Assembly: GCA_016209685.1 (NCBI GenBank)
Contig: JACQVQ010000012.1
Coordinates: 111,584-175,583, forward strand
Direction of reading: 5' to 3'
DNA from: Planctomycetota bacterium
Lineage (GTDB): Bacteria; Planctomycetota; Brocadiia; Brocadiales; Bathyanammoxibiaceae
Length of the DNA: 64,000 nt
Below are positions 7,455 through 50,939 of the stretch, piece after piece. How positions within the stretch are numbered: the stretch's first letter is position 1; the number at the start of each line of letters is the position of its first letter. A program made the translations under genes and the position numbers. Under the pieces are notes generated by a model. It ran no database searches. It worked only from the letters and a program-made list of their open reading frames with translations, and was not told where the DNA came from.

Positions 7455-7461
7455 AACTCAA

Positions 7462-7546
7462 ACCAATGCTCAAACGCACTGACATAAAGAAAATACTCAT
7501 CATAGGCTCGGGCCGATTGTAGTGGGTCAGGCTGTGATTTGATATG
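7462..7546 (+). pseudogene. Broken copy of the carB 5' end
   Basis: From ACCAATG (ATG at 7466) onward the sequence aligns base for base with the start of intact carB (8188-8275), with scattered substitutions and single-base deletions. It reads [16 protein letters not shown] before an early stop, against [16 protein letters not shown] in carB. Similarity ends near TTTGAT (about 7543), immediately before the ribosome-binding site of the DUF5678 gene. This is most simply the original or duplicated carB start left behind when the cassette entered. Confidence 0.85.
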
Positions 7547-7556
7547 GAGGAAAAAA

Positions 7557-7799
7557 ATGAAAACACATGAGGTAAAAAGACCCTCTCCAGAGGTCTTGAA
7601 AAACCTTGAGGCCCTTGAAGGACAATACAAAGGGATGATTGCCGCTATTTACCCTGATAGTGGCGAATACTTTCTGGGTAAAACTTTGGTTGGAGCCGCA
7701 GAGAAAGCCAGAAAAAAATACCCAGAGAAAACCTTTTACTTTATCCGTATAGGCTACCCCTACGCCCATGAGCATAGAGGTGGTATTAAAAAGGCATGA
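7557..7799 (+). CDS. DUF5678-type small protein, first gene of a two-gene cassette
   Basis: An 80-residue protein. The ATG at 7557 is chosen over an upstream TTG because GGAGG (7546-7550) lies six bases before it. The central part (LEGQYKGMIAAIYPDSGEYF, then GKTLVGAAEKARKKYP) follows the DUF5678 pattern of a short beta-hairpin followed by a helix. These proteins are often found next to small retropepsin-like proteases, as here, and their role is not established. Its stop overlaps the next ATG (ATGA at 7796-7799), so the two are translationally coupled. Its A/T-rich codon use differs from the flanking car genes, which suggests acquisition. Confidence 0.7.
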   Translation: MKTHEVKRPSPEVLKNLEALEGQYKGMIAAIYPDSGEYFLGKTLVGAAEKARKKYPEKTFYFIRIGYPYAHEHRGGIKKA

Positions 7800-8188
7800 C
7801 AAAAATTAAGGGTCTTATCAAGAACTTTGTACCTACTTTTGGTGTGCACGTAGACGAGGATGTAGGAATTTTAAAGATTGTAGATGACCATGATGCAACT
7901 AAATTTGTGGTAGATACCGGATTCACTGGAGGCGTGTCTATTTCAGATGACATACTTGATTTACTTAGTTTAGATTTTGTTGGATTTGAAATGTTTCGGT
8001 TAGCCAGTGGAGAAATTGTGGACCTGCCTGTTTATTTAGGTGGCGTTGAGGTCTTTGGTAGAAAAACGAAAACATGGTTTATCCCTGGCGAACCACTCCT
8101 GGGTATGGAGTTTCTTTCTGTGGTGGGAAATTCCCTAGTTTTAAATTTTAAGGCCTCCACAGTGGAGTTAATTGGTAAACAAGAATAA
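7796..8188 (+). CDS. Retropepsin-like (clan AA) aspartyl protease family protein
   Basis: A 130-residue protein with the single-domain aspartyl-protease signature FVVDTGFTGGVSIS (about 38-51, active-site Asp41-Thr-Gly) and the later LLGMEFL element typical of this family. Retropepsin-like proteins act as dimers, each supplying one Asp. It is coupled to the DUF5678 gene and ends 3 bp before the carB start codon. Low GC and codon use unlike carA/carB suggest transfer. Substrate is unknown; a toxin-antitoxin-like or post-translational control role with its partner is only an inference. Confidence 0.72.
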   Translation: MTKIKGLIKNFVPTFGVHVDEDVGILKIVDDHDATKFVVDTGFTGGVSISDDILDLLSLDFVGFEMFRLASGEIVDLPVYLGGVEVFGRKTKTWFIPGEPLLGMEFLSVVGNSLVLNFKASTVELIGKQE

Positions 8189-8191
8189 CCA

Positions 8192-11100
8192 ATGCCCAAA
8201 CGCACCGACATAAAAAAAATTCTAATCATAGGCTCAGGGCCGATTATCATCGGCCAGGCCTGTGAGTTTGATTACTCCGGCACTCAGGCCTGTAAGGCCC
8301 TCAGGGAGGAGGGCTACCAGATAGTCCTGGTAAACAGTAACCCCGCCACCATCATGACGGACCCTGAGATTGCTGACGCCACCTACGTAGAACCTCTCAC
8401 CCCTGAGGTACTGGAGAAGGTCATCGCCAGGGAGCGACCCCAGGCCCTACTGCCTACCCTGGGCGGGCAGACGGCCCTTAACCTGGCAGTGGCCCTGGTA
8501 GAGAGGGACGTCCTGAATAAATACGCCGTAGAACTCATCGGGGCCAAATACGAGGCCATCAAAAAGGCGGAGGATAGGCAATTATTCAAGGAGTCCATGA
8601 GGAAGATTGGCCTCGAGGTCCCTGAAAGCTATTATATCCGTTCAATGAGTGAGGCCATGGGGGCCTATGAAAAGATTGGCCTCCCTGCCATAATCCGCCC
8701 CTCGTTCACCCTCGGTGGTACGGGGAGCAATATCGCCAGGACCCCGGAAGAGTTCAAAGAATATGTAGAGCACGGCCTGGACATGAGCCCCGTCTGTGAG
8801 GTCCTCATAGAGCGTTCAATCATAGGCTGGAAGGAGTTTGAGTTGGAGGTGATGCGTGACCTCAGGGACAACGTGGTCATTATATGTACCATTGAGAACC
8901 TTGACCCCATGGGGGTACACACAGGGGACAGCATAACCGTGGCCCCGGCCCAGACCCTTACTGATAGAGAATATCAGGTCATGCGGGATGCGGCCATAAA
9001 GGTTATCCGCGAGATAGGGGTAGAGACTGGAGGCTCTAACATCCAGTTTGCCATACACCCGAAGACCGGGGAGATGCTGGCCATAGAGATGAACCCCAGG
9101 GTCTCCCGCAGTTCCGCCCTTGCCTCCAAGGCCACGGGCTTCCCCATTGCCAAGATTGCCGCCAAGCTAGCCGTAGGCTACACCCTGGACGAGATTCCTA
9201 ACGACATAACCCGCTACACCCCTGCCAGCTTTGAACCTGCCATAGATTACTGCGTGGTAAAGGTGCCGAGATTTGACTTTGAGAAATTCCCCGGTGCAGA
9301 CCAGCGGCTCACCACCCAGATGAAGTCCGTGGGGGAGGTCATGGCCATTGGACGGACCTTCAAAGAGGCCCTGGGGAAGGCCCTGCGGTCTATGGAAATT
9401 GACCGCCCAGGTCTGGTGGAAGTCTTACCCAGCGTCCCCAATGCAGAGGAGATAAGGGCCTTCTTACGCCAGAAGCTCCAGGTACCGTCCTGGGAGGGCA
9501 TATGGTACATTGCAGAGGGGTTAAGGTACGACCTTACCGTAGAAGAACTCTACAAGCTCACCCATGTAGACCCCTGGTTCCTAAACAATGTAAAAGAGAT
9601 AGTGGACATGGAGGACGGACTACGCCTAGAAGGCATAATGGTAGGGGCACGTTGCAACGTGCCCCTACTGAAGGAGGCCAAGGCTTATGGTCTCTCGGAC
9701 GCCCGCATAGCCCAATTGACCGGCACCACAGAGGAATCCGTACGTTCCCTCCGTCACAAAGATAACCTGCGGCCCGTATACAAGAGGGTAGACACCTGTG
9801 CCGCAGAGTTTGAGACCTACACCCCTTACCTGTATTCCACCTATGAGCAGGAGTGTGAGGCCAGACCCACAGACAGGCCCAAGGTGGTCATCCTGGGCAG
9901 TGGGCCCAACCGCATCGGCCAAGGGATAGAGTTTGACTACTGCTGTGTCCATGCCGTCATGGCCCTCAGGGAGATGGGTTACGAGACCATAATGGTCAAC
10001 TGTAACCCGGAGACGGTAAGCACCGACTACGATACCTCTGACAGGCTGTACTTTGAACCCCTTACGCTGGAAGACACCCTGGAGATTATCCACCTGGAAA
10101 AGCCGCAGGGGGTAATAGTCCAGCTTGGAGGCCAGACGCCCCTGAAGCTGGCGGTACCCCTGGAAAAGGAGGGCATAAAGGTACTGGGGACGTCCCCCGA
10201 TAGTATAGACCGCGCTGAGGACAGGGAGCGGTTTGCAGAACTCCTCAGGAAGGTAGGCCTGAAACAACCTGACAACGGCTGTGCACGCTCCATGAAAGAG
10301 GCCATAACAGTTGCGGAGAGGTTGGGGTATCCGGTACTCGTCAGGCCCTCCTACGTACTGGGGGGACGTGCCATGCGGGTGGCCTTTGATGAGAAATCGC
10401 TAAGAGACTACGTCCAGAAGGCCACAGAGGTCTCACCCAAACATCCCGTGCTTATAGACAAATTTCTGGAAGACGCCGTAGAGATAGACGTGGACGCCGT
10501 GGCGGATGGCCAGCATGAGGTCTTTGTTGGAGGGATTATGGAGCATATTGAGGCCGCCGGCATACACTCAGGGGACAGCTCCTGCGCCCTTCCACCCTAC
10601 TCCCTGCCACGGGAGACCGTGGAAGAGATAGAGCGTCAAACCCAGGTACTGGCACTGGAACTGCAAGTACTTGGCCTCATTAACATCCAGTACGCCATAA
10701 AAGACGGTGAGGTCTATGTGTTAGAAGTAAACCCCAGGGCCTCCAGGACCGTACCTTTTGTCTCCAAGGCCATAGGCATACCCTTGGCCAAGGTGGCTAC
10801 AAAAATTATTATGGGAAAGACCCTGAGGGAATTAGTAGGGGCGACCGGCCGGTCGCCTCTACCTTACACAGCCGTAAAAGAAGCTGTTCTACCATTCATA
10901 AAGTTCCCAGGGGTAGATACCATCCTGGGGCCTGAGATGAAGTCCACCGGGGAGGTCATGGGGCTGGACAAGGACTTTAGCAGGGCCTATGCCAAGAGCC
11001 AGATGGGTGCGGATGGCTTACTGCCGTTGTCGGGAACGGTATTCATAAGTGTAAGAGACAGAGATAAACCTGGGGCCGCCCTGTTGGCTAAGACCCTTCA

Positions 11101-11452
11101 TAAGATGGGCCTCATGCTAATGGCCACAAGAGGTACTGCCAGTCTCATATCCAAGGAGGGCATACCGGTGCAGGAGGTACGCAAGGTATTTGAGGGTAGT
11201 CCCAACGTAATGGATTATCTGAAGAAGGGCGAGATACATCTCGTAATAAATACCACCGAGGGGAATATCTCCGAAAAGGACTCCTTCCCCATAAGGCGCA
11301 CGGCACTGATACATCACATACCCTACTTTACCACCCTTTCAGGCGCAAGGGCCGCCGCCAGGGCCATAGAGTCCATGCTCAAGGGACAGGTAGAGGTCCG
11401 GCCCCTGCAGGAGTATTACCAAAGAAAGAATTCAGTAGTCAGTAGTCAGTAA
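8192..11452 (+). CDS. carB: Carbamoyl-phosphate synthase large subunit
   Basis: CarB carries two tandem ATP-grasp halves that make carbamoyl phosphate from bicarbonate, ATP and the ammonia delivered by CarA. At 1086 residues it is close to full family length (about 1070-1080). The duplicated halves start with [13 protein letters not shown] (about 10-22) and [14 protein letters not shown] (about 566-579), and a C-terminal MGS-like allosteric domain follows. Two palindromes of the intergenic GTAGGGGC family sit inside the frame and encode [10 protein letters not shown] (484-493) and [10 protein letters not shown] (882-891). The C-terminal SVVSSQ comes from a CAGTAGT repeat. No strong ribosome-binding site precedes ATG 8192. 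Confidence 0.98.
9641..9668. repeat. GTAGGGGC-family palindrome inside carB
   Basis: A perfect 28-bp palindrome identical to the intergenic one at 59061-59088. It is read in frame as VGARCNVPL between the two CarB halves. Confidence 0.9.
10835..10862. repeat. Second GTAGGGGC-family palindrome inside carB
   Basis: Nearly perfect 28-bp palindrome (GTAGGGGCGACC arm and GGTCGCCTCTAC arm), read in frame as VGATGRSPL. It has the same reading frame as the copy at 9641. Confidence 0.8.
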
Positions 11453-11453
11453 C

Positions 11454-11510
11454 GTAGGGTGCGTGAAACGCACCGAAACAATAAATGGTGCGTCTAAAGA
11501 CGCACCCTAC
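11454..11510. repeat. Palindromic GTAGGGTGCG repeat between carB and phoB
   Basis: Outer arms GTAGGGTGCG and CGCACCCTAC, with two inner GTGCG/CGCAC dyads. A partial relative occurs at about 50976-51025. Confidence 0.8.
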
Positions 11511-11545
11511 AAACTGAATCCTGTATTCTGTGTTCTGGATAAGAT

Positions 11546-12232
11546 ATGGCCAAAAAAGAAATCCTGGTCGTAGAGGACGAAAAAGACCTCACTGAGTTAA
11601 TAAAATACAACCTGGAGAAGGAGGGTTTCCAGGTCTTTTCTGCCTCTAACGGAGAAGAGGGGCTTAAGCTGGTGCAGAGGAAGCGGCCGGCCCTGGTACT
11701 CTTGGACCTCATGCTACCGGTGATAGACGGACTGGAGGTCTGTAGAAGGATAAAGAAAGACCCGCAGACTGCGGCCACCCCGGTGGTCATCCTTACAGTA
11801 AAAGATGCCGAGGCTGATATAGTCTCAGGACTGGAGGTCGGGGCTGATGACTATATAACCAAACCCTTTAGCCCCAGGGTACTCATTGCCAGGGTGAGGG
11901 CCATCCTGAGGAGGTACGAAGGGTCCGCCGAGACCAAGAGGGTAATTAAGCTGGAAGGCCTGACCATAGATCCCGTAAGGTACGAGGTCAAGGCAGATGG
12001 AGAGGACGTCCAGCTTACCAGGATGGAGTTTAACCTGCTGAAGTTCCTGGCGGAGAGGGCGGGGAGGGTACTTACCAGAAACCAGATTATGGACGGAGTC
12101 CTTGGGGAGGACGCCGTGATTATAGACAGGGCCATAGACGTTCACGTTGCCTCCCTGCGGAAGAAGCTGGGAGAATATGGCCCTCATATAGTTACTGTAA
12201 GGGGCGTAGGGTATAAATTCAAAGAACCGTGA
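11546..12232 (+). CDS. phoB: PhoB-type response regulator (OmpR family)
   Basis: A 228-residue two-domain regulator. The receiver domain has the acidic pair in VVEDEKD, phosphoacceptor Asp in LVLLDLMLP (about 54) and the conserved Lys in ITKPFSP (about 105). The C-terminal winged-helix domain (residues about 130-226) ends with the usual VRGVGYKF. A histidine kinase of PhoR type follows, and porin and pst genes with Pho boxes lie downstream. Established PhoB biology is activation of phosphate-starvation genes by binding 11-bp-periodic direct repeats, and such repeats are visible at 13867, 24247 and 24704. No Pho box is seen in front of phoB itself. Confidence 0.92.
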   Translation: MAKKEILVVEDEKDLTELIKYNLEKEGFQVFSASNGEEGLKLVQRKRPALVLLDLMLPVIDGLEVCRRIKKDPQTAATPVVILTVKDAEADIVSGLEVGADDYITKPFSPRVLIARVRAILRRYEGSAETKRVIKLEGLTIDPVRYEVKADGEDVQLTRMEFNLLKFLAERAGRVLTRNQIMDGVLGEDAVIIDRAIDVHVASLRKKLGEYGPHIVTVRGVGYKFKEP

Positions 12233-12249
12233 TAGAAATTCACTGCCTG

Positions 12250-12369
12250 TCATTCTGAGGGAGTGAAATCCGCCTGAGGCGGAAAGAATCTCTAATCCGA
12301 AATGTCACCCTGAGCGGAGCGAAGGGTCTAGATTCTTCCCCTTCACTTCGTTCAGGGTCAGAATGACAC
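12250..12369. repeat. Nested inverted repeats between phoB and phoR
   Basis: GTCATTCTGAGG...TCAGAATGACAC family dyad containing a CCGCCTGAGGCGG palindrome (12270-12282) and a GTCACCCTGAGCGG segment like that at 7403. Confidence 0.75.
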
Positions 12370-12376
12370 CCAGAAC

Positions 12377-13801
12377 ATGAAAAGTCTCCGATGGAAAACC
12401 TTTCTGAGTTATGTAGCCCTAGTGGGCATATACGTCCTTGTGGTGGGACTCTTCATTAATACCCCATTGAGGGAGGTTCTTGGGCCTGGTCTCAGTTTTA
12501 CACTGGGGAGTCTCCTGGCTACGGCCATTGCCCTGCCTGTGGGTTGGTTCATAAGCAGACGTCTCTTGAAACCCCTCAAGGAGATAACCCATGCCTCAGA
12601 AGGGTTCTCCAGGGGGGACTTTTCTGGAAGGATAAAGGTATATTCCCAAGACGAACTGGGACAACTCTCCCTGGGCCTCAACCAGATGGCCCAGGGGATG
12701 GAACAAACGACCGCCGCTACCACCAAGGATAAAAACCAACTGGAGGCACTCCTTTCCAGTATGACCGAGGGGGTAGTGGCAGTGGACGGCCAGGAGAGGA
12801 TATTCAAGATTAACGACGCCGCCGTCCAGATGCTCCGCCTTCCCAGGGAAAAGGCCCTTAACAGGTATCTATGGGAGGTCTTGAGAAACCCCAGGCTCAT
12901 TAGTCTGATACGAGAAGTACTGAAGGAGGGCAGGCGTGGGGGGATGGAGTTGACCGATTTCTTGCCCGGTAGTACTACCGCCCTCAGCCTCCAGGTCTCC
13001 CCCATAAGAGAGCCTGGCCAGACACTCGGCCCCCTTCAGACAGACACTGCCCAGGTCTCTGGGGCCGCAATAGTCCTCCACGACATCACAGACCTCAAGA
13101 AACTGGAGAAGATGCGGGTGGAGTTTGTGGCAAACGTCTCCCACGAACTCAAGACCCCCCTGGCCTCCATCAAGGGCTTTGTGGAGACCCTTAAAGACGG
13201 GGCACTGGAGGAGACTGATAACGCCAGGCGGTTCCTGGGTATCATAGAAAAACATGCCAATCGCCTGGATAACCTTATAAACGACCTCCTCAACCTATCC
13301 AAGATAGAGTCCAGAGAGACCCCACTGGAACTAAAGAAGATAGAACTAATGCCCTTGATGAAGAAGATAACCGCCAACCTGGAAGACCGCATAAGGGAGA
13401 AGAACCATCTCTTAGACCTGCGGGTGGAACCAGAGGGACTGGAGCTTGTGGCCGACGAACCCCTATTGGACCAGGCCGTAACTAACCTGCTTGACAACGC
13501 CATAAAGTACACCCCTGCCGGCGGCAAACTATCCATCTCCGCAAGAGAAGGCAATGGCCGGATAGAACTGGCCGTAACGGATACGGGCATAGGTATCCCC
13601 GAGTATGACCTGCCGCGCATCTTTGAGAGGTTTTATCGTGTGGACAAGGCACGCAGTAGGGAGATGGGAGGCACTGGCCTGGGCCTGGCAATAGTCAAGC
13701 ACATCATGCTGGTCCACGGTGGAGAGGCAAGGGTGGAAAGCCGGGCTGGCTTTGGAAGCACCTTTACCCTCTCTTTCCCATCCAGGGAAGTCAGTAGGTA
13801 G
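12377..13801 (+). CDS. phoR: PhoR-type sensor histidine kinase
   Basis: A 474-residue inner-membrane kinase. Two closely spaced membrane segments (about 10-28 and 38-58) leave almost no periplasmic domain, as in PhoR. HAMP (about 60-110) and PAS (about 115-225) domains follow, then the phosphoacceptor helix NVSHELKTPLASIKG (His at about 252) and an HATPase domain with DNAIKYTP, DTGIGIP and GTGLGLAIVKH boxes. It lies behind phoB and in front of a Pho-box porin, so it most likely reports phosphate supply through the Pst/PhoU complex encoded at 24.8-29.3 kb. A repeat cluster separates it from phoB, so it may also have its own promoter. Confidence 0.9.
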   Translation: MKSLRWKTFLSYVALVGIYVLVVGLFINTPLREVLGPGLSFTLGSLLATAIALPVGWFISRRLLKPLKEITHASEGFSRGDFSGRIKVYSQDELGQLSLGLNQMAQGMEQTTAATTKDKNQLEALLSSMTEGVVAVDGQERIFKINDAAVQMLRLPREKALNRYLWEVLRNPRLISLIREVLKEGRRGGMELTDFLPGSTTALSLQVSPIREPGQTLGPLQTDTAQVSGAAIVLHDITDLKKLEKMRVEFVANVSHELKTPLASIKGFVETLKDGALEETDNARRFLGIIEKHANRLDNLINDLLNLSKIESRETPLELKKIELMPLMKKITANLEDRIREKNHLLDLRVEPEGLELVADEPLLDQAVTNLLDNAIKYTPAGGKLSISAREGNGRIELAVTDTGIGIPEYDLPRIFERFYRVDKARSREMGGTGLGLAIVKHIMLVHGGEARVESRAGFGSTFTLSFPSREVSR

Positions 13802-13829
13802 GAACAATTGCGGGTCTCCTGACCTGCAA

Positions 13830-13856: not shown

Positions 13857-13866
13857 TTATAGAAAT

Positions 13867-15370: not shown

Positions 15371-15390
15371 TTTAGGAAAGAATATAGCGA

Positions 15391-15489
15391 ATCTCCGAGT
15401 CGATTGTCCTAAGACCTAGTGTTATGGGCAGTCGACCGATAGGGTACAGGTGGAAACGCCTGCGCCTCCTGTCTTGGAAAGGAGAGGAA
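15391..15489 (+). ncRNA. Moco/Tuco-type riboswitch aptamer (candidate)
   Basis: The 3' portion, GCCTCCTGTCTTGGAAAGGAG-like (15464-15484), closely matches the same part of the E. coli moaA Moco RNA as I recall it (GCCTCC...TGGAAAGG). The adjoining ACCGATAGGG also corresponds to ACCAGGG there. CTCC (15393-15396) pairs with GGAG (15481-15484) to close the aptamer. Inside are an 8-bp stem (15399-15406 with 15429-15436) and a GAAA-capped hairpin CAGGTG/CGCCTG (15447-15462). GGAGAG (15481-15486) can instead pair with CTCTCC (15510-15515), disrupting the terminator. The family call rests on recall and manual alignment. Confidence 0.68.
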
Positions 15490-15498
15490 GAAATACAA

Positions 15499-15540
15499 GG
15501 GTTGACTGTCTCTCCAAACAAGAGGCGTCAGCCCTTTTTT
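15499..15540 (+). terminator. Leader terminator (riboswitch expression platform)
   Basis: GGGTTGAC (15499-15506) pairs with GTCAGCCC (15527-15534), followed directly by six T's. It lies before the porin start codon, so it can only act as a conditional attenuator. The alternative pairing of CTCTCC with GGAGAG of the aptamer stem predicts that ligand binding switches the gene off. Confidence 0.85.
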
Positions 15541-38904: not shown

Positions 38905-39105
38905 TCCTCACCTCCCCGATATTATTAAGAGGTCTGGGATCTTGGACTTGCTATATTTTACAGGGTAAGGAGGAAATATCAAGGGTGGTGTTACTAGGGA
39001 ACAGGGGTTAGGGGGTAGGGCGTAGACACTAAGTACTATGCACTAGGCACTAAACAGTAGGCACTAGACATTAATAAGGTTTTTGCTTACTGCTTACTGT
39101 CCTAA

Positions 39106-39152
39106 TCGCCTCCTGTAGTCTAACAGCCCCCGTGTACAGGGCCTTACCTTGC
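39106..39152 (-). pseudogene. Partial second copy of the hisA 3' end
   Basis: Directly after the HEPN stop codon the minus strand reads GKALYTGAVRLQEAIR, against GKALYTGTIKLTEAIK at the end of intact hisA. Eighteen bases (CCCCGTGTACAGGGCCTT on the plus strand) are identical, and the rest has diverged. The fragment lacks the remainder of hisA and runs into an AGTAAGC repeat. It marks the far edge of the MNT/HEPN cassette. Confidence 0.8.
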
Positions 39153-39554
39153 TTAGCTTTTTAAATCTTCCCCTGGAAACATTGCAAGGACAAAACTTTT
39201 AGCCTCTTCTAGAGCCTCTTTAATGTCTTCACAAGTAAGCCCTGAAATGCCAAGCGGAGGGTATCTATTCGCAAAATAATAGCCTGAAACACGCTCACAT
39301 AAATCACGAAAATCTTCTAAGTCAGGATTGTGCTTAGCGGCGTTGTCTAATAATGCATCAAGTTCGTGTATTTTCCGAAGTTTCCATCCGTGCTGTAAAA
39401 GAAAGGCCTTTAAGTACTTTTCTAAAGACTGTTGAAAGAAGAAGCCTGCCGCCTCGGCGTCTTCCTTGTCTAGCATATGCAAGGTCCGAGTCCAGTCTTT
39501 TCTTGCAATCTCCAGCCAATCGGACGGGAATGTCGGGCCTTCCCGTTCATTCAT
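39153..39554 (-). CDS. HEPN-domain protein (toxin-type partner of MNT)
   Basis: A 133-residue all-helical protein of the PF05168-like HEPN group (EAAGFFFQQSLEKYLKAFLL, KIHELDALLDNAAK). HEPN/MNT pairs are established toxin-antitoxin modules in which the nucleotidyltransferase modifies and silences the HEPN RNase. The strict Rx4-6H RNase motif is not evident, so catalytic activity is uncertain. The start overlaps the MNT stop (ATGA), showing coupling. The stop is followed at once by the hisA fragment. Codon use and lower GC suggest acquisition. Confidence 0.85.
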   Translation of the reverse strand: MNEREGPTFPSDWLEIARKDWTRTLHMLDKEDAEAAGFFFQQSLEKYLKAFLLQHGWKLRKIHELDALLDNAAKHNPDLEDFRDLCERVSGYYFANRYPPLGISGLTCEDIKEALEEAKSFVLAMFPGEDLKS

Positions 39555-39868
39555 AAAGACAATCCTTTTTCTAATATCTCAATTATGAACTGGTCCCCTG
39601 CTTTCTTTCTCTTTTCAATCTCTTCGGGCGTAAGGGCTACGGGCGCGATTGGCAGGCCATTTCTCAAGTCCCTTATAAGACGTTTCACTGATGCCATCCT
39701 CTCAAAGAACCGCTCCTTTGTAGGCGCTATGACCAATATGTCTACATCACTATCCTGGGTGTATTTCCCTGTGACATAAGAACCAAAAAGAATAACTCTT
39801 TCGGCATGATACTCTTTTTTTAGTCGTTCACTTATTTTCCTTAGCAATTTGTGTATTTCTTTATTCAC
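39551..39868 (-). CDS. MNT-type nucleotidyltransferase (antitoxin-type partner of HEPN)
   Basis: A 105-residue minimal nucleotidyltransferase with the polymerase-beta-type signature GSYVTGKYTQDSDVDILV (about 28-45), which provides the catalytic Gly-Ser and Asp pair. It starts with GTG 39868 (GGAG upstream) and precedes the HEPN gene, the usual order. Known MNT antitoxins add AMP to the HEPN protein. It lies about 130 bp downstream of the hisA stop on the same strand. Confidence 0.88.
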   Translation of the reverse strand: MNKEIHKLLRKISERLKKEYHAERVILFGSYVTGKYTQDSDVDILVIAPTKERFFERMASVKRLIRDLRNGLPIAPVALTPEEIEKRKKAGDQFIIEILEKGLSL

Positions 39869-40000: not shown

Positions 40001-40723
40001 CTAGTCAAAACTCCCTAGACTTTTTATGGCCTCCGTCAGCTTAATGGTCCCCGTGTACAGGGCCTTGCCTACGATTGCCCCTTCCACACCTAAAAGGCTT
40101 AGGGACCTGAGGTTCTCCAGGGTGGCAATCCCCCCTGAGGCGATTACCGGTGTTTTTATAGTCTGCAGGAATTGCTTTAAGAGGATTGTATCCGGACCCT
40201 GGAGTGTGCCATCCCTGGATATATCCGTTACAATAAAGGCCCTGGGACCTGCCTTCTCAATCCGCTGGGCCAAGTCTATTAGAGAGAATTCGGAGACCTC
40301 TAACCAGCCCTTTACTGCTATCCGGCCGGCCTTGTGGTCCAGACTGATAGCAATACACCCAGGGTATTCCTTGCACAGTTCTTCAACAAGCTTAGGGGAA
40401 TCCACCACCTTTGTGCCAAGGATAACCCTGTCCAGGCCCATTGCCAGTATCTGGATGGCACTCTCTTTTGTCCTGATACCTCCCCCGAACTGCAAGGGTA
40501 TCTTCACTGCCTGGAGGATGCTCCTCAGGGAATCCAGGTTTTTGGGCGCCCCCTCACGGGCACCGTCCAGATCAACCACGTGTAAATATTGGGCCCCCTG
40601 GGTCTGCCACGTCAAGGCCGCCTGTACGGGGTCATCATAGTAAACAGTCTCTTCCTCAAAGCGCCCCTGGGTGAGCCTGACGCATCTTCCACCGCTCAGG
40701 TCTATGGCAGGGATTATCAGCAT
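40001..40723 (-). CDS. hisA: HisA, phosphoribosylformimino-AICAR isomerase
   Basis: HisA catalyses the fourth step of histidine synthesis, an Amadori rearrangement in a TIM barrel. ATG 40723 gives 240 residues, the family norm; a longer frame to 40759 runs into a palindrome. Catalytic Asp8 (IPAIDLSGG) and the Asp in VTDISRDGT are present, with phosphate-binding glycines QFGGGIR and ASGGIA. A second, diverged copy of its last 20 or so codons lies at 39106-39152 beyond the MNT/HEPN cassette. hisH is two genes upstream. Confidence 0.96.
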   Translation of the reverse strand: MLIIPAIDLSGGRCVRLTQGRFEEETVYYDDPVQAALTWQTQGAQYLHVVDLDGAREGAPKNLDSLRSILQAVKIPLQFGGGIRTKESAIQILAMGLDRVILGTKVVDSPKLVEELCKEYPGCIAISLDHKAGRIAVKGWLEVSEFSLIDLAQRIEKAGPRAFIVTDISRDGTLQGPDTILLKQFLQTIKTPVIASGGIATLENLRSLSLLGVEGAIVGKALYTGTIKLTEAIKSLGSFD

Positions 40724-44791: not shown

Positions 44792-45133
44792 TTAATGGCC
44801 ATGCTCAGGGTGGTGGTCATGCCCTTCATGCCCCTTAGTATGTTTCTCTATATCACAGGGGCACCTGGCTGCCGTACCCTGACAATGGGCACAGTCCTTA
44901 CTCCCAGGGGGGCAGGAGCACGCAAATTTATCGGGGTCTTTCTCAAACCTGGCAAAGCAGTTCTCAGAACAGAAACAATAAACTTTTCCATCATACTCCG
45001 CCTGGACGGCCTTATTTCTGTCCACCTTTTTTTCGCATACGGGGTCAAAGACCTCCTCCCCTACCATAACTGCGGGGGACAATAGAAAAAACATGGCACA
45101 TATTACCATCAAGAGTATCTTCTGTACGTTCAT
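44792..45133 (-). CDS. Secreted YHS-domain metal-binding protein with Cys/His-rich tail
   Basis: A 113-residue protein with a signal peptide (about 1-25). The YHS domain (DPVCEKKVDRNKAVQAEYDG, KVYCFCSENCFARFEKDPDK) is followed by a tail crowded with cysteines (CSCPPGSKDCAHCQ, CPCDI) and histidines (GHEGHDHHPEHGH). YHS domains occur with heavy-metal ATPases and bind metal. The tail suggests periplasmic copper, zinc or nickel storage or delivery, which is inference. No transporter gene is adjacent. Confidence 0.85.
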   Translation of the reverse strand: MNVQKILLMVICAMFFLLSPAVMVGEEVFDPVCEKKVDRNKAVQAEYDGKVYCFCSENCFARFEKDPDKFACSCPPGSKDCAHCQGTAARCPCDIEKHTKGHEGHDHHPEHGH

Positions 45134-45219
45134 CTTATTTCTCCTGGTGTTTGAACCAACTTCTTATCGGGAGCAACCCTGCCACGCCTAAAAATAGGGC
45201 AAACCGCCGCCATTGTCAA

Positions 45220-45274
45220 GTAGGGGCACGGCACGTTGAAAACCCGCCAGATTTTGGGTGGGCCGTGCCCCTAC
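45220..45274. repeat. 55-bp GTAGGGGCACGG palindromic element
   Basis: Arms GTAGGGGCACGG and CCGTGCCCCTAC with a long stem-loop interior. It supplies the stop codon of truB (TAG in GTAGGGG on the minus strand). A second, inverted copy lies inside truB at 45726-45779. Confidence 0.9.
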
Positions 45275-46077
45275 ACGGGTAAATCAATCGCATCTGAGAG
45301 TCTATAAGGTCCTATCCCCATCCGTGTCAGCTGGGTGAGGACCGCCCCTGTGTCCAGTTCCTTCCCGATGTCCACCACCAGAGACCTTACATAGGTCCCA
45401 GAAGAGACGCGGGCCCTGAAGCCTACCCTGGGGGCTATGTTCAGGAATTCTTCTGGACCAAGTTCCTGTGGGGGCACGTTGTCCGCCGAGGCGGAGGCCC
45501 CTACATTGGCAACAGGACGAAAATCTAACAGTTCCAGGCGTTCAATATTTATCCTCCTCCTGGGCAACTCCGGGAGTGGACGTCCCCTCCTGGCCAGTCT
45601 ATGTAACCTCTCCCCCTTTACCTGGACGGCTGAGAAGGGGGGTACAGTCTGCTCTTGCTCCCCCTGAAATTTTTTAAAGACTGCTTCTAGCTCGGCTTTT
45701 TTAATGGAAGAAAGTCGCTCCAGGTGTAGGGGCACGGCCCACCCAAAATCTGGCGGGTTTTCAACGTGCCGTGCCCCTTGTTCGGCAAAAAACCTGAGCC
45801 GCCCATCGGCACTATAGGTGTCACTCTCCACCCCCAGGGCAAACTCCCCCTCGTATTCTTTAGGGAGTCGGGTGAAATCTCCCTGCCTCTTAGTGGCCTC
45901 CCCGACAAGGATTATAAGCAACCCCGAGGCCATACTATCCAGCGTGCCCGTATGCCCGACCTTTTGACCTGGGAAATATCTCCCCCTCACCCTGGCCACC
46001 ACCCCAAAAGAGGTAATGCCCACCGGCTTGTTAATCAGTATTACGCCCTTCTCAAATTCCTTTGGCTTGTGTGTCAT
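45271..46077 (-). CDS. truB: TruB, tRNA pseudouridine-55 synthase, with two palindrome-derived insertions
   Basis: TruB makes pseudouridine 55 in the T-loop of tRNAs. Catalytic Asp47 lies in GHTGTLDSMASG, preceded by the KPVGITS motif and followed by SSGTYVRSLVVDIG. The 268 residues include two segments that TruB normally lacks: 100-117 (QGARHVENPPDFGWAVPL), encoded by a 54-bp element almost identical to one beside the gene, and 191-205 (NVGASASADNVPPQE), encoded by a mixed palindrome. Both keep the frame and leave the catalytic motifs intact. The enzyme is probably functional. Confidence 0.95.
   Translation of the reverse strand: MTHKPKEFEKGVILINKPVGITSFGVVARVRGRYFPGQKVGHTGTLDSMASGLLIILVGEATKRQGDFTRLPKEYEGEFALGVESDTYSADGRLRFFAEQGARHVENPPDFGWAVPLHLERLSSIKKAELEAVFKKFQGEQEQTVPPFSAVQVKGERLHRLARRGRPLPELPRRRINIERLELLDFRPVANVGASASADNVPPQELGPEEFLNIAPRVGFRARVSSGTYVRSLVVDIGKELDTGAVLTQLTRMGIGPYRLSDAIDLPV
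45468..45504. repeat. Mixed palindrome inside truB
   Basis: GGGGGCACGTTGTCCGCC arm with GGCGGAGGCCCCTAC on the other side. It encodes VGASASADNVP in the same frame as other GTAGGGGC copies. Confidence 0.8.
45726..45779. repeat. 54-bp element inside truB, inverted copy of 45220-45274
   Basis: Aligns with the reverse complement of the intergenic copy over essentially its whole length; only the edge bases differ. It is exactly 18 codons long, so the reading frame is preserved. Confidence 0.9.
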
Positions 46078-46130
46078 TCCGAGTAATAGTTAAAGGTCTC
46101 ACAGCAAAGTACCTTTGTGTCATAACTATA

Positions 46131-46222
46131 TAATATCCTTAAAAATTGTATTTGCTATAGAGATAGGGAATCCGCATAATATCCCTAAAAATTGTATTTG
46201 CTATAGAGTTGGGGAATCCGCC
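46131..46222. repeat. Two tandem 46-bp direct repeats between divergent genes
   Basis: Copies start TAATATCC at 46131 and 46177 and differ at only a few positions. Each contains TTGTATTTGCTATAGAG, so a promoter-like segment is duplicated between truB (minus) and the small membrane protein gene (plus). Confidence 0.85.
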
Positions 46223-46241
46223 CAAATTAGAGAGGCGATAC

Positions 46242-46448
46242 ATGTTGGATTGCAATCTAGACACTGCCCAGCGATGGCGGAGGGTCATATTCGGGTTAGT
46301 ACTTTTGGTGCTGGCCTATGGTGCTCACACCTATTCTTATGGCAGGGTCTTCCAGTGGGGACTGGGACTCGGTGGGGTCTTTGTCCTCTTTGAGGGCCTG
46401 AAGGGATGGTGCGCATTAAAGGCCCTGGGTTTCAGGATACCTTTTTAG
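46242..46448 (+). CDS. Small DUF2892-like membrane protein
   Basis: A 68-residue protein. ATG 46242 is chosen because the sequence then begins MLDCNLDTAQRWRRV, the usual entry to the DUF2892 fold, whereas the longer frame starts in the tandem repeat. Two membrane helices follow (VIFGLVLLVLAYGAHTY and WGLGLGGVFVLFEGLKGW). A Cys near the C-terminus (GWCALKALGFRIPF) resembles the YgaP-type family, in which this domain often follows rhodanese. Function is unknown. Confidence 0.72.
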   Translation: MLDCNLDTAQRWRRVIFGLVLLVLAYGAHTYSYGRVFQWGLGLGGVFVLFEGLKGWCALKALGFRIPF

Positions 46449-46464
46449 GGAGGGTAATATTTTA

Positions 46465-46827
46465 ATGAACGGAGACATGCTGGACGCCAGGACGCCCAGT
46501 TCCTATGAAACTACACAACATACCCTGGGCCTTGTGCCTATGATAAAGACAGGGGGCATGGTAAGCGGCAAGATTGAATGCCTTACGGAGGCCGACTTTA
46601 CTGCCCTCTTAAAAATCGCCCAGGGACACGAGGAGCTTGGTAATAACATTATACTGGCATCCGCCTCAGGCGGACAGGGTGAGGTACGCCTGTTCTGGCA
46701 CAATGACATCGGAGACAGCGCCTGCTGGCGGTTTGTTGGGAAGAAGAGGGAGGCGGTGAAGAACGCCGTCCTGTCCGATATCCAGTCCTTTAAGAAGATG
46801 ACCTCTGGTAAGGGGGGGCTTTTCTAG
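46465..46827 (+). CDS. Small cytosolic protein of unknown function with an ASGG insertion
   Basis: A 120-residue soluble protein following the small membrane protein by 16 bp with a GGAGGG ribosome-binding site, so they are probably co-transcribed. I do not recognise the family. Residues 65-71 (ASASGGQ) come from a CCGCCTCAGGCGG palindrome that splits an apparent beta-strand pair (NNIILAS / GEVRLFWHN). Removal of the insertion would leave an ordinary short loop. Confidence 0.65.
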   Translation: MNGDMLDARTPSSYETTQHTLGLVPMIKTGGMVSGKIECLTEADFTALLKIAQGHEELGNNIILASASGGQGEVRLFWHNDIGDSACWRFVGKKREAVKNAVLSDIQSFKKMTSGKGGLF

Positions 46828-46928
46828 TCTTTAGGTTTTATCTGGTGCTGAGCTAAGGCAACAAATTAAATCAATACGCCTGTATCTCCAGAATTAACAC
46901 CTCAGCCCTCTGGGCCAGGTTTATTCTA

Positions 46929-48014
46929 TTAAGGTTTTTCTTCAACATGTACGATAACTTTCTCTTTTGCGCCCGATTTATTTGTGACCGTAATTTTTGC
47001 AGTCCCAACCGACTTGGCGGTAATCTCTATCGTATTATCATCCTTCTTTTCCGCTCCGGCAACCGCTGTATTTTCCGACTTAACGTCGTTAATGGGCTTA
47101 GCCTTATGCACCTCGATTTCTACTGTCGATGCAGGTTCAAGTGTTACTTCATATTCTTTGACTTCCACCTCTACTTTCCTCATCTCACCCCGGCCATTTG
47201 AAACAGTAATCTCCGTTTTCCCAGCCGTTTCCCCTGCCTTAATTGTTACTACATTACCATTTGCTTCTCCTGTTGCAACTTTAGGATCGTCTGAGACGGC
47301 ATCTGTTATCGGTCCGTTTTGGATTGCTATAACCTGTGTCACTAGCTTCGTACGTTGTTTAAGACTCACTGCATATGTATTAAGTCTTAGCTCATCAGGC
47401 CTAGCGCGTTCTCTTACTTCCCCAGTGGCCGCCTCAATATCTTCTTTGGTTGGGATTCTTGCGGCAAGGGCTTTTTCTACTAGCTTAAGGGATCCCACAA
47501 CACTAACGTACAATTCGGCACCGGGGCTAGTGAGCTCGCTATTTGAAACCTTGCCATGATAGTCTTTTGCAATTTTGTTGAAGTACTTTGCCTCTGCCTC
47601 CTCAATTAACTCAAGCCCGTCCACATAGGCATTTATACGCTCTTTGAGTTTAAAAAGGCCAAGGCCATCACCAGTGAAGAGGCTTGCAGCAGCAAGGCCT
47701 GCGGTGCCAATTGTTGACCCGCCTGTCGCCGCCAGGGTTGCCGCCGCAGTCGCCGTAGCAAGGGCAGTCACGCTTGAGGCATATGCGGCTATGGTGGAAA
47801 ACTGCATCTTTGCACGAAACATGTGCCGTAAATTGTTGCTGAATTCCAGGATGTCCTGGTCGGTAATTGAGTACTCCACACCGGGCTCTTTTATATTTTT
47901 AAGATACAGGTCATCTCCACGTATTTTTTGCTTGAAGTTGCCGCATCCTAAACTCCCGGTCAGGAGCACCAGTAGGATGGAGATATATCCGGTTGTAGCT
48001 CTCAATTTAAACAT
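46929..48014 (-). CDS. Lipoprotein with Ig-like (BIG-type) C-terminal domains
   Basis: A 361-residue lipoprotein with lipobox LTGSLGC (Cys about 24). An alanine/glycine-rich hydrophobic helix (about 76-113) may enter a membrane, and a helical middle follows. Two bacterial Ig-like repeats end the protein: one with GPITDAVSDDPKVATGEANG to TEITVSNGRGEMRKVEVEVK, and a final one ending TAKITVTNKSGAKEKVIVHV. The first repeat is closely related to the domain in the next gene (48110-48490), so the two are paralogous partners. Surface attachment is likely and ligand unknown. Confidence 0.75.
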   Translation of the reverse strand: MFKLRATTGYISILLVLLTGSLGCGNFKQKIRGDDLYLKNIKEPGVEYSITDQDILEFSNNLRHMFRAKMQFSTIAAYASSVTALATATAAATLAATGGSTIGTAGLAAASLFTGDGLGLFKLKERINAYVDGLELIEEAEAKYFNKIAKDYHGKVSNSELTSPGAELYVSVVGSLKLVEKALAARIPTKEDIEAATGEVRERARPDELRLNTYAVSLKQRTKLVTQVIAIQNGPITDAVSDDPKVATGEANGNVVTIKAGETAGKTEITVSNGRGEMRKVEVEVKEYEVTLEPASTVEIEVHKAKPINDVKSENTAVAGAEKKDDNTIEITAKSVGTAKITVTNKSGAKEKVIVHVEEKP

Positions 48015-48109
48015 GGCTGTTACCCATCTTAACGGTCAGGTAAGGTCTGTCGCCGGCCAAGATTCCACTTCTAACTTCCAGAACTTTAGCCCTTACCGGC
48101 AGGGCTAGA

Positions 48110-48490
48110 TTATTTAACTTCCACATTAATTTTCTTCTTCGTACCTTTCTGATTTGAAACAGTAATGCAGGTTTTACCAGGCGATATACCTGTAACACTT
48201 ATTAGCTCATACTTTGTACTTTCTTTTTTCTCTCCAGTGGCAATCTCTGGGTTTTCTGAAGCAATACCAGTTACTGGCCCGTTTTTGACTACCAAGATTT
48301 CTGCTACCTTACCTTTTCCTAGAGTCACTTCGTCTTTGGAAAGTACTATCTCATTTTCCGCACGGGCCTGGGCCCTTTCCACTACGCTAGGTCTATACAT
48401 GTACTGGTGTTTGAAGTCGCAACCTATCTGTGGCAGTGATAGGACAATTAGCCCAACCCAAAGTTTGGCCATACTTCTTAGGCTGTACAT
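48110..48490 (-). CDS. Short lipoprotein with one Ig-like domain
   Basis: A 126-residue lipoprotein. ATG 48490 is chosen (AGGAAA upstream), and the lipobox is LSLPQIGC (Cys about 24). A single Ig-like domain fills the C-terminal half (VLVVKNGPVTGIASENPEIA, CITVSNQKGTKKKINVEV) and matches the first repeat of the larger neighbour. It is transcribed ahead of that gene with a 95-bp gap. Function is unknown. Confidence 0.72.
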   Translation of the reverse strand: MYSLRSMAKLWVGLIVLSLPQIGCDFKHQYMYRPSVVERAQARAENEIVLSKDEVTLGKGKVAEILVVKNGPVTGIASENPEIATGEKKESTKYELISVTGISPGKTCITVSNQKGTKKKINVEVK

Positions 48491-48979
48491 GTAAATTTCC
48501 TGGTTATGGATGGTGAGAAGCCGTGTTCTGATGGTCGCAAGGTACAGACTTTTTGAAAGGTGCCTGAGTGGCATAGGAGGACTGTTTTGATGTCGTGTTG
48601 CAACAAGGCACCAACAGGTTACTGAGTTACTTTGTTGCTCCGAAAGTTAGTCCCTAAAGCAGTGCCGGCATGGAGGAATTATTAAACTTGCAGACCCCCT
48701 CTTCCCCTTTGGAACACCTGTCCACGAACCCCCGCTAGGGTCCACCGGACTTATCCCCATGCCGTTCTTAGCAGGCGTTATTTATCACGAGTTGGGGGTG
48801 ATGTCAATAAAATTTTTTAATAATTGAAGGGTTTTTTTGCTGAGAAAGAAGGCGGTTGGGATGGGGCACGTCCACCTTTTTACATCGCTTTCTTGTGCCT
48901 GTCGGAGGGTAAATCTTCGTGGTTGTTTTCTCGCCATAGGCAAATCCGCCTATGGCGTGAGAGGAACGTACTTTCTATT
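48491..48979. other. 490-bp gene-free region
   Basis: No convincing gene on either strand. It holds the likely promoter of the short lipoprotein gene, a candidate structured RNA (48666-48764), an A/T-rich T-run stretch (48808-48838) and a perfect GCCATAGGC / GCCTATGGC hairpin at 48933-48956 just past the miaB stop, which may serve as its terminator. Confidence 0.6.
48666..48764. ncRNA. Candidate structured RNA closed by an 8-bp stem
   Basis: CGGCATGG (48666-48673) is complementary to CCATGCCG (48757-48764). The enclosed 80 or so bases hold further short hairpins such as GTCC/GGAC and ACCC/GGGT. No known RNA family is recognised and the strand is undecided. Confidence 0.25.
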
Positions 48980-50293
48980 TTAAGCAACAAGACGTCCAAA
49001 GAGGGTAAGCGAGGTGACCTCTTCTATCTTTACCTTTACCAACTCCCCCTTAATGGTACTGGGTCCCTCAAAGACTACTATCTGATTCTGTGGGGTGCGG
49101 CCAGTGAGCCTCTTTTTATTTGATTTACTGGGTCCTTCTACCAATACCTCCACTATCTGCCCGACCCTCTTCTTGTTTTCCTCAAGGCTTATATGGGATT
49201 GTACGTCCAGTAACCTCTGGTTCCTCTCTTTTTTTAACTCCAGGGGGACGTTGTCCAGGAGTTCTGACGCCTTTGTGCCCGGCCTTGGGGAGTATTTGAA
49301 GACATAGGAGTTCTGGAAGCGGGCGGCCTCCATCAACCTGACCGTAGCCTCAAAGTCCTCCTCCGTCTCCCCCGGAAAGCCAACGATGAAGTCGCTTGCT
49401 ATAGCAATGTCTGGCACCAGTTTCCTGGCAAGTCTTATCAGTTCCAGATAATGCTGGGCCGTATGACCCCTTTCCATCCCCTCCAGGATGCGGTCCGAGC
49501 CGGATTGGGCTGGCATGTGGAGGTGCTTACAGACCCTGGGCAATTCTGCCATGGCCTCCAGTACCTCTATTGTCATGTCCTTGGGGTGGGAGGTAACAAA
49601 GCGTATGCGTTCAAGCCCCTCTACCTTGCTAACGGCCCTCAGCAGGGTGGCGAGGTTAGTGCCCTTCTCCAGGGTTTTACCATAAGTATTTATGTTTTGT
49701 CCCAGGAGGGTAATCTCTTTACAGCCCTCATTGACAAGAGATTGGGCCTCCTCTACTATCTCCTCTACTGTCCTGCTTATCTCAGGGCCTCTTACGTGGG
49801 GGACTATGCAGTAACTGCAGTAATTGTCACACCCCCGCATGACTGTTATATATGCCTGGTGGGGATTCTCCCTGGGGGGACGCCGTCTGGGGTAGCTCAC
49901 CACCTTCTCGTCTGATACGGCCAGGAGGTGTCCACCGTTACTACCCAGCCTCTCCAGGAGTTCGGGGAGCTTATCAAACATCCTTGTCCCGCAGACCATA
50001 TCCACGTGGGGGTATCTGCGGAAGATTTCTTCCCCCTCCTTCTGGGCCACACAGCCCAGGACGCCTATCACAAGGTCTGGCCTCCGGGTCTTGCGGGCCT
50101 TCAGTTGAGACAGGCGGGAATAGACCCTGTCCTCTGCACGTTGGCGGACACTGCAGGTGTTGAAGAGGACGACGTCGGCGGCGGACTCATCCCCGGCAAG
50201 CCGATAGCCCCTCTCCAGTAGCAGTCCCAGGGACAGCTCCGAATCCGCCTTATTCATCTGACAACCAAAGGTGGTAAGGAAGACGGATTTCAT
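48980..50293 (-). CDS. miaB: MiaB, tRNA-2-methylthio-N6-dimethylallyladenosine synthase
   Basis: MiaB is a radical-SAM methylthiotransferase acting on A37 of tRNAs. The 437 residues contain the N-terminal UPF0004 domain with three conserved cysteines (FGCQMN, NTCSVRQ, GCVAQ), the radical SAM motif CDNYCSYC and a C-terminal TRAM domain. ATG 50293 directly follows the stop of the DUF2283 gene with no intervening base. A partial copy of its first 16 codons lies at about 50808-50854 on the other side of the cassette, encoding MKSIFLTTFGCQMNKA. Confidence 0.96.
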   Translation of the reverse strand: MKSVFLTTFGCQMNKADSELSLGLLLERGYRLAGDESAADVVLFNTCSVRQRAEDRVYSRLSQLKARKTRRPDLVIGVLGCVAQKEGEEIFRRYPHVDMVCGTRMFDKLPELLERLGSNGGHLLAVSDEKVVSYPRRRPPRENPHQAYITVMRGCDNYCSYCIVPHVRGPEISRTVEEIVEEAQSLVNEGCKEITLLGQNINTYGKTLEKGTNLATLLRAVSKVEGLERIRFVTSHPKDMTIEVLEAMAELPRVCKHLHMPAQSGSDRILEGMERGHTAQHYLELIRLARKLVPDIAIASDFIVGFPGETEEDFEATVRLMEAARFQNSYVFKYSPRPGTKASELLDNVPLELKKERNQRLLDVQSHISLEENKKRVGQIVEVLVEGPSKSNKKRLTGRTPQNQIVVFEGPSTIKGELVKVKIEEVTSLTLFGRLVA

Positions 50294-50566
50294 CTACGTC
50301 TTACCTGTTGCAAAGATTTTTGTAATCTCTTCACATACAATTTCCCTTAAGGCTGGCAGATTAAATTTGTCTGCCAACGAGGAGAGTAATCCAGGGGCCT
50401 CATCAAAGTTGAGTATTTCTATACCCAAAAGACACCCGTCTTTGTCCAGGTCAATGAAATTCTCTTCCCCTATTTCCTCGGTACTGGCCACCTCTCCTTC
50501 TTTTATCCGGATGTAGGCGGCAATTACTTCTTTCTTTTCATCATCAGTCTGGATTTCTACTCTCAT
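50294..50566 (-). CDS. DUF2283 small protein (predicted antitoxin)
   Basis: A 90-residue protein with the DUF2283 pattern AAYIRIKEGEV, then IDLDKDGCLLGIEILNFDEA. DUF2283 genes commonly sit beside DUF4258 genes in predicted toxin-antitoxin pairs, as here. The last 85 bp are exactly repeated at 50855-50939. ATG 50566 has GAGGG upstream, and the gene abuts miaB without a gap, so it may drive miaB translation by coupling. Confidence 0.8.
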   Translation of the reverse strand: MRVEIQTDDEKKEVIAAYIRIKEGEVASTEEIGEENFIDLDKDGCLLGIEILNFDEAPGLLSSLADKFNLPALREIVCEEITKIFATGKT

Positions 50567-50575
50567 ATTGACCCT

Positions 50576-50797
50576 CTATTTAGGATAAACCGTTACGACC
50601 AAGAGGTGGTCTACGTATTCTTCATATATAACATGAATAACTCTACCTTCAAGAAGTTTTATTGCCCTCTTACGCCCTAGACGGGCTGGCAAGACCTGGT
50701 CAGGATTAGCTAATATCTCACTCATTTGTGCTTTGGTTACTTTTCTTTCCTTCAGTTTCTGTACAGCATGGCCCAGGTACCTTACCTCTTTTGCCAC
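50576..50797 (-). CDS. DUF4258 small protein (predicted RelE-like toxin)
   Basis: A 73-residue protein with the DUF4258 layout: YLGHAVQKLKERKVTKAQMS at the N-terminus and RVIHVIYEEYVDHLLVVTVY at the C-terminus, a compact RelE/BrnT-like fold predicted to act on RNA. GTG 50797 immediately follows the stop of the truncated miaB copy (TAAGTG). It precedes DUF2283 by 9 bp. Toxicity is inferred from family context only. Confidence 0.78.
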   Translation of the reverse strand: MAKEVRYLGHAVQKLKERKVTKAQMSEILANPDQVLPARLGRKRAIKLLEGRVIHVIYEEYVDHLLVVTVYPK

Positions 50798-50800
50798 TTA

Positions 50801-50939
50801 TGTCCTTGCCTTATTCATCTGACAGCCAAAGGTGGTGAGGAAGATGGATTTCATCTACGTCTTACCTGTTGCAAAGATTTTTGTAATCTCTTCACATACA
50901 ATTTCCCTTAAGGCTGGCAGATTAAATTTGTCTGCCAAC
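50801..50939 (-). pseudogene. Duplicated DUF2283 3' end plus miaB 5' end
   Basis: 50808-50939 repeats 50247-50378 (132 bp, 561 bp apart) with three mismatches, all in the miaB part. On the minus strand it reads the last 27 DUF2283 codons, the stop, then MKSIFLTTFGCQMNKART and a stop at 50799-50801. Upstream of 50940 the similarity ceases. Confidence 0.93.

Follow-up and report, generated by a model that had tools for sequence, protein, structure and literature searches.

How small cassettes of the toxin-antitoxin (TA) type come to lie against the ends of housekeeping genes, each with a partial copy of the gene end on its far side, is the question raised by a stretch of 64,000 nucleotides from a Planctomycetota bacterium, whose order resembles the anammox group. 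This stretch, referred to here as the window, covers positions 111584-175583 of contig C11 of a genome (G000) that is 2.02 Mb in size, assembled in 14 contigs and 94.6% complete; three such cassettes are found in it, at carB, hisA and miaB. The current analysis of this genome, of comparison genomes (numbered G001 onwards) and of loci in other phyla indicates that the cassettes are probably minimal mobile TA units that recombine solely through a copied end of a conserved gene, and that enter when a circular or tandem donor crosses over once with the chromosome. The arrangement, as read from the sequences, suggests that TA pairs could move without transposase or integrase.

The partial copies at the three genes, which a sequence-only reading of the window had described, are real as judged by alignment and, for carB and hisA, by shuffling. 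The carB fragment (7461-7543) repeats positions 8187-8272 at 84-85% identity with indels and scores 88, whereas 60 shuffled versions of the flank reached no more than 24, and the second cassette gene at this site stops 3 nucleotides 5' of carB. The hisA copy, 45 bp long and 80% identical, scores 41 against at most 29 in flank shuffles. At miaB the repeat of 132 bp (50247-50378 and 50808-50939, 98% identity) is made up of 47 bp of the miaB head and the tail of the DUF2283 gene preceding it. These are partial copies of gene ends, 5' ones at carB and miaB and a 3' one at hisA, and they do not duplicate the target exactly. What may be a third miaB start, very short (ATGAAAAAATCCATG), is seen at window positions 50938-50955, directly upstream of the miaB repeat, and perhaps represents an older unit that has been mostly deleted.

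A scan for gene-end copies was carried out on 808 kb of the genome (40%; 639 genes) at a score cut of 42, below which the hisA copy narrowly falls. Twenty hits lie on the side proper to the copied end (11 with a 5' copy upstream and 9 with a 3' copy downstream). They comprise eight cassette sites, seven tandem paralogues or internal repeats, one case of copies without TA genes (C3:207155), one spurious antisense open reading frame over the proA fragment, one repeated stretch that was dropped (C13:108730) and two hits outside the assigned classes (C3:100017 and C3:170240), paralogue status being judged from position and from mid-gene hits in common, without inspection of each single case. The controls on the wrong side or in mid-gene gave 16 hits, which by position are tandem paralogues or repeats except for two, C11:78492 and a spurious reading frame on the strand opposite to the pheT cassette. 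No hit came from the antisense controls over the 639 genes. The tRNA-Pro site, not being a protein gene, comes from a separate scan. With the three sites of the window, seven more in the sampled part (proA 5', proA 3', lpxD, pheT, leuS, an hgdC-like gene and tRNA-Pro) and two among targeted TA loci, the genome has 12 cassette sites. The sequence-only reading had made its case depend on whether further cassettes flanked by gene ends occur in the genome, and further examples have thus been found. Two other candidates, C11:67k in G000 and L243, were dropped since internal control segments matched too.

The copies at all sites span 25-160 bp and the units about 0.3-1.3 kb. At nearly all sites the cargo is of predicted TA type: Pfam matches above cut-off identify MNT, HEPN, HepT, HicA, HicB-like and ParE genes, while the carB cassette genes, the DUF4258 and DUF2283 genes and the MqsA-like gene are TA candidates only, and one TA partner is missing or decayed at some sites. 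The TA genes are co-oriented with the target at the copy-bearing sites, as far as these were listed or read; between the two copies of the 655-residue gene, which we take to be hgdC-like, an opposite-strand frame alone is present. The gap from gene to TA genes is 0-16 nucleotides at six of the nine measurable sites of G000 (22, 132 and 140 at the others), and that from TA genes to fragment is at most 16 nucleotides, or an overlap, at six of nine (28, 72 and 196 at the others). The units that were read contain TA frames and gene-end copies, no search having been aimed at transposases or inverted repeats. The features of the window and the copy-bearing sites outside it are collected below.

Table. 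Cassette features of the window, with the further copy-bearing sites of the same genome and of other phyla
Feature	Window position	Strand	Copy	Cargo or remark
carB, displaced 5' end (fragment, indel-decayed)	7461..7543	+	84-85% to carB head	Letters of outer part also found in empty relatives
First cassette gene at carB	7557..7799	+		80 aa counted from ATG; unmatched in Pfam and NCBIfam
Second cassette gene at carB	7796..8188	+		Clan AA aspartic protease-like; TIGR03698, E 1.5e-8, below its cut-off
carB, intact	8192..11452	+		Head unlike native type; letters common to G001 and G002
hisA, 3'-end fragment	39105..39149	-	Repeats hisA 3' end	
HEPN-domain cassette gene at hisA	39153..39554	-		PF05168
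Nucleotidyltransferase cassette gene (MNT type) at hisA	39551..39868	-		PF01909
hisA	40001..40723	-		G001-like up to and through block GGCAAGGCCCTGTACACGGGG; tail beyond unlike G001
miaB, intact	48980..50293	-		Start adjoins cassette directly
DUF2283 cassette gene at miaB	50294..50566	-		Profile match
DUF4258 cassette gene at miaB	50576..50797	-		Profile match
miaB, 5' fragment	50798..50854	-		18-codon frame; stop abuts GTG start of DUF4258 gene; G006 layout alike
Second copy of DUF2283-tail/miaB-head block	50808..50939	-	132 bp, 98%	
proA 3'			84 bp, 89%	MNT-domain gene and HepT
proA 5'			64 bp, 95%	HicB-like UPF0150 remnant
lpxD 3'				DUF4258 and DUF2283
pheT 3'			94 bp, 83%	DUF4258 and weak MqsA-like gene
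leuS 3'			107 bp, 86%	MNT
hgdC-like gene (655 aa) 3'			Two successive copies	MNT
tRNA-Pro 3'			34 bp, 97%	HicA and HicB-like; tRNA gene confirmed
AMP-binding enzyme gene (outside sample)			74 bp, 89%	MNT gene
ParA-like gene (outside sample)			98 bp, 92%	MNT gene
Deltaproteobacterium, NOV_C-domain gene 3' end			121 bp, 87%	
Nitrospiraceae, hsdM 5' end (hsdM by likeness)			56 bp, 88%	
Nitrospinae (L210), hsdM 5' end			28 bp, weak; score 31 versus 23	

The same gene ends are used again in other genomes. Among 30 loci examined for each gene, a few of which (G002 carB among them) had too short a flank for the copy test, gene-end copies are found at carB in G000, G001 and G006, at miaB in G000, G006 and G022, and at hisA in G000 alone. 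The cargo at carB differs from genome to genome: G000 has the protease-like pair, G001 has HicA and a weak HicB-like gene, and G006 has one gene that matches no family. The copies measure 25, 77 and about 81 bp across the three genomes, so that the position of the crossover is not fixed. At pheT the DUF4258 and MqsA-like genes of G000 stand against DUF4258- and DUF2283-like genes (by eye) in G002. At leuS, G000 carries an MNT gene and G006 a ParE-type toxin gene with a short partner; the latter site is stacked, the ParE-type unit and its copy being followed by a second two-gene unit, DUF433/PIN-like by eye, and a second copy of 29-33 bp. The two successive copies at the hgdC-like gene of G000 are taken as stacking too. 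The leuS site of G002 carries MNT and HepT genes without a detectable copy. Further sites are those of G006 at what is presumably a yicC-type gene (HicB- and HicA-like genes by eye, 70-bp copy), of G002 at the hgdC-like gene (HEPN and MNT genes, 36-bp copy) and of G001 at proA 3' (64-bp copy, and a gene that looks DUF2283-like by eye and contains a run of N).

Filled sites are also common to close relatives, at lpxD in G000 and G001 and at leuS and the hgdC-like gene in G000 and G002, and empty ones are seen at leuS in G001 and lpxD in G002. Judged by carB, G001 (99% identity to G000) is a closer relative than G002 (97%), and in G001 both leuS (L189) and the hgdC-like gene (L190) are empty although they are filled in G000 and G002, which hints at clean loss or transfer. 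Copy sites also occur in other families of the same order. The MNT gene of the hisA cassette has 13 relatives in named genomes (the best, at 83% identity, in a Nitrospirae metagenome-assembled genome), and three of these 13 loci, in other phyla, carry gene-end copies; a gene-end hit at another locus, L215, was dropped as weak and seen at the protein level only. Samples of 134 kb from each of G003 and G017 yielded no cassette site, the G003 hits resembling tandem paralogues (one checked) and the lone G017 hit being antisense. The 12 sites of G000, the recurrent docking with differing cargo in relatives and the three loci in other phyla bear out the proposal that small TA-type cassettes enter gene ends generally and restore them.

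The native end at each site was sought by taking the positions at which fragment and intact gene differ and asking which of the two a comparator shares, inner positions being those on the gene side and outer ones those on the side away from the gene body. At lpxD, compared with the empty site of G002, the outer positions favour the fragment by 50:4 and the inner ones the intact copy by 8:0, and the fragment together with the DNA beyond it matches the native end and intergenic DNA of G002. At pheT the fragment of G000 agrees with that of G002, over its whole length, by 16:2 in preference to the intact copy; the intact tails of the two genomes are unlike, and both fragments belong to one tail type, the simplest reading of which is that two independent insertions have displaced one native tail. 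For lpxD and pheT these alignments show that the far-side fragment is the displaced native end and the intact end is foreign.

A foreign intact end at carB and proA 5' is supported by fewer sites. Compared with the empty G003, carB of G000 gives 4:0 outer positions for the fragment and 9:0 inner ones for the intact gene, and carB of G001 gives 3:0 and 3:0; with G004-G007 the pattern is alike, with one or two contrary sites each. At proA 5', against the empty G001, the counts are 4:0 outer for the fragment and 2:0 inner for the intact gene, seven more sites beyond the homology being omitted. At leuS, also against an empty G001, the inner positions favour the intact gene by 10:0 and the outer ones the fragment by 4:3. 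The hisA gene is G001-like up to the conserved block (18 bp identical in both copies), from where its intact tail departs from G001. Wherever both sides are informative (lpxD, carB, proA 5' and leuS), gene and fragment change type within one and the same stretch, which one reciprocal crossover explains. At leuS a foreign leuS stub follows the TA side, a junction absent from a linear gene-TA donor, which argues for a donor that was circular or tandem.

The donor would thus be a circular or tandemly repeated molecule comprising the TA genes and about 25-160 bp of a foreign gene end, which would recombine once with the matching chromosomal gene end. The product would read native gene to the crossover, foreign gene end, TA pair, foreign stub and native end, and at 5' ends the mirror image of this order. 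The host gene would be kept whole, so that core genes can act as docking sites and units can stack; the copies, the TA-type cargo, its co-orientation, the recurrent use of the same genes and the stacking are observed directly. We infer the circle from the junction of TA genes and foreign stub and from the coincident switch points. Catalysis would be by general homologous recombination of the RecA type, excision may proceed between the copies, arrival may be by DNA uptake, and retention is likely to depend on addiction and on co-expression with the core gene. The G000 genome encodes one predicted tyrosine recombinase, of 330 residues and Xer-like by reading, has no match to the serine recombinase family (PF00239) at its 94.6% completeness, and possesses a ComEC homologue; these three observations favour host homologous recombination acting on circles of TA genes and a gene end. 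Of the two routes earlier envisaged, capture by homologous recombination with donor gene ends is preferred, in the narrower form of one crossover between the chromosome and a donor that is circular or tandem.

Several observations weigh against this single-crossover reading. In the switch test, part of the inner 9:0 count at carB of G000 sits in an indel-bearing stretch; hisA gives inner 8:1 and outer 9:9; proA 3' is without a switch, 9:2 for the intact copy throughout against G001, as would be expected from a plain duplicate that is decaying; miaB offers few sites, which favour the intact copy against G007 (5:0) and G037 (6:1) and lie partly beyond the homology; and the hgdC-like gene has too few sites and a G002 comparator that is not empty. 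The longest identical runs between fragment and intact gene are now 11 bp (carB, lpxD), 18 bp (hisA, pheT), 30 bp (proA 5') and 48 bp (leuS), which is low for RecA. Copies without TA genes also occur: in G001 (C102; L200:4962-5433) a 115-bp copy of the carB 3' end (97%) lies 243 bp away with no TA genes between, in G022 (C14; L025:2638-3196) a copy of the miaB head (111 bp, 90%) is without TA genes, and in G000 (C3:207155-208267, L122) a gene of 370 residues without Pfam match has its 5' end three times in a row, one intact and two copies, with repeat DNA alone between them.

To these is to be added that the majority of the TA loci tested are without copies. Gene-end copies are found at four of 17 HepT/HEPN loci of G000 (five raw), at none of 14 HepT loci of G001, G002 and G006, at four of 26 HepT loci in other genera of the order (five raw, one dropped as a repeat) and at none of 27 HEPN loci across the phylum, where control comparisons gave 4 of 252. 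The four copy-bearing loci of the order lie at an argininosuccinate-lyase gene, a weakly SMC-like gene, an unassigned gene and an aminotransferase class IV gene, and have MNT partners. Pattern scans of viral contigs for relatives of the hisA-cassette MNT gene and the pheT-cassette DUF4258 gene found none.

Among the alternatives, a linear donor taken up by transformation or transduction, already holding gene, TA genes and stub and exchanged through two crossovers in the gene and the stub, is unlikely to be the explanation, even though it would need no circle, could rely on the ComEC homologue and would agree with the filled sites common to close relatives (lpxD; leuS and the hgdC-like gene). 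Such a donor would spread existing sites and not create them. Its crossover in the gene would moreover be expected anywhere over 1-3 kb, whereas at lpxD, leuS and hisA, and by a small number of sites at carB and proA 5', the return to native-type sequence in the intact gene already lies within the copied stretch.

Strict duplication of a long target, in which an enzyme would make a widely staggered cut in the gene end and gap filling would leave two initially native copies, appears improbable. It is the closest to a described pattern, the long and variable duplications of the order of 100 bp reported at restriction-modification genes (PMC3874152), and it would fit proA 3' and perhaps miaB. It predicts, however, that the intact gene be at least as native as the fragment. 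The outer sites point the other way at lpxD and pheT, and also, though the counts are small, at carB and proA 5'; the unlike intact tails of pheT in G000 and G002 also speak against it. Slightly less probable still is a tyrosine or serine integrase acting in trans on the gene end as its attachment site. The topology is that of integrases at tRNA and protein genes, and one of the sites is a tRNA 3' end; the lone tyrosine recombinase, the missing PF00239 match in a genome of this completeness, the many unrelated targets, the carB copies of three different lengths and the little room left for attP arms make the trans-acting enzyme once considered a poor candidate. Unrelated tandem duplications of gene ends with TA genes inside by chance, though some duplication did happen at miaB where the repeat includes the DUF2283 gene end, are very improbable given the placing of the copies on the expected gene side with antisense controls empty in G000, the differing cargo at the same ends and the foreign intact ends at lpxD and pheT, and ordinary tandem duplication accordingly loses ground as an account of the junctions.

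The 5' sites have a further feature. In G000 and G006, which belong to different genera, the miaB fragment forms a frame of 18-19 codons whose stop abuts the start codon of the TA genes. The core of this leader is identical at 38 of 39 positions between the two genomes, against 1044 of 1310 for the whole of miaB and 399 of 507 for the TA genes; the miaB heads are themselves identical at 46 of 50 positions, so that the contrast is modest. At carB, G001 has a leader of 33 codons overlapping the next start and G006 a leader fused in frame; no such leader is seen at carB of G000, at proA 5' or in G022. These frames suggest translational coupling to the start region of the host gene. We tentatively entertain, without leaning towards it, a joint reading in which the TA modules are recombinase-free minicircles with a captured gene end that dock and stack through host recombination, and in which the displaced 5' start serves as a translated leader coupling TA expression to the start signals of the host. 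On that same hesitant reading, such minicircles might form the smallest class of integrative element.

The open-licence literature searched yielded no report in which TA cassettes are accompanied by gene-end copies, and to this extent the statement that no described system does this stands; it does not stand for the wider pattern, since insertion with long target duplication, with long variable repeats of the order of 100 bp, is described for restriction-modification genes (PMC3874152, PMC1643837). The likeness lies in addiction-type genes, no known mobile element and long variable direct repeats of the target, here of 25-160 bp. The differences are that the cargo here is of TA type and not restriction-modification, that docking is at core gene ends with recurrent ends and stacking, and that a pattern framed there as target duplication appears here at several sites as a displaced native end and a foreign end (lpxD and pheT, with smaller counts at carB and proA 5'). 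The meningococcal TpsA/TpsC system shows experimental exchange of gene 3' ends together with a downstream gene by recombination at identities of 5-23 bp, with further ends persisting downstream and a circular intermediate among the models discussed (PMC3848433). It resembles the present units in the entry of a new 3' end and downstream gene through homologous recombination at short identity, and differs in that the exchanged end there is a variable C-terminal domain, whereas here it is the end of an unrelated core gene with the TA genes as separate cargo.

Other likenesses are more general. Islands inserted by tyrosine integrases at tRNA and conserved genes have a Campbell-type topology in which the element restores the end of the target gene; the present units share this topology and the restored gene end, and are distinguished by having no integrase, a length of about 0.3-1.3 kb, many unrelated targets per genome and a variable crossover. 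Integron gene cassettes are small, have a circular form, stack at one site and commonly carry TA genes. Small size, stacking and TA cargo recur here, with a putative circle; the docking site is instead a gene end, and IntI was not seen, the one tyrosine recombinase being Xer-like, while attC was not searched for. Insertion with long target duplication of restriction-modification genes was reportedly recognised in Helicobacter pylori by Nobusato et al. in 2000.

How chromosomal TA modules move between genomes without a carrier mobile element is an old question. If the units behave as proposed, the target gene's own end would be the sole site required, core genes would become insertion hot spots as the unit repairs them, and each insertion would leave a readable record in the form of a displaced native end and a foreign one. 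Minicircles of TA genes with gene ends would then be predicted. Gene trees and annotation also have to allow for housekeeping genes with foreign ends.

An intergenic repeat is present as identical 38-bp copies at window positions 7400-7437 and 12301-12338, and stretches resembling it lie inside decayed cassettes, at leuS in G000 and at carB 3' of G001. In G022 the miaB spacer has a non-coding appearance, and a motif of about 20 bp recurs in it. Elsewhere in the window, a molybdenum/tungsten cofactor riboswitch is found at 15381-15500 and a selenocysteine tRNA gene at 58952-59047.

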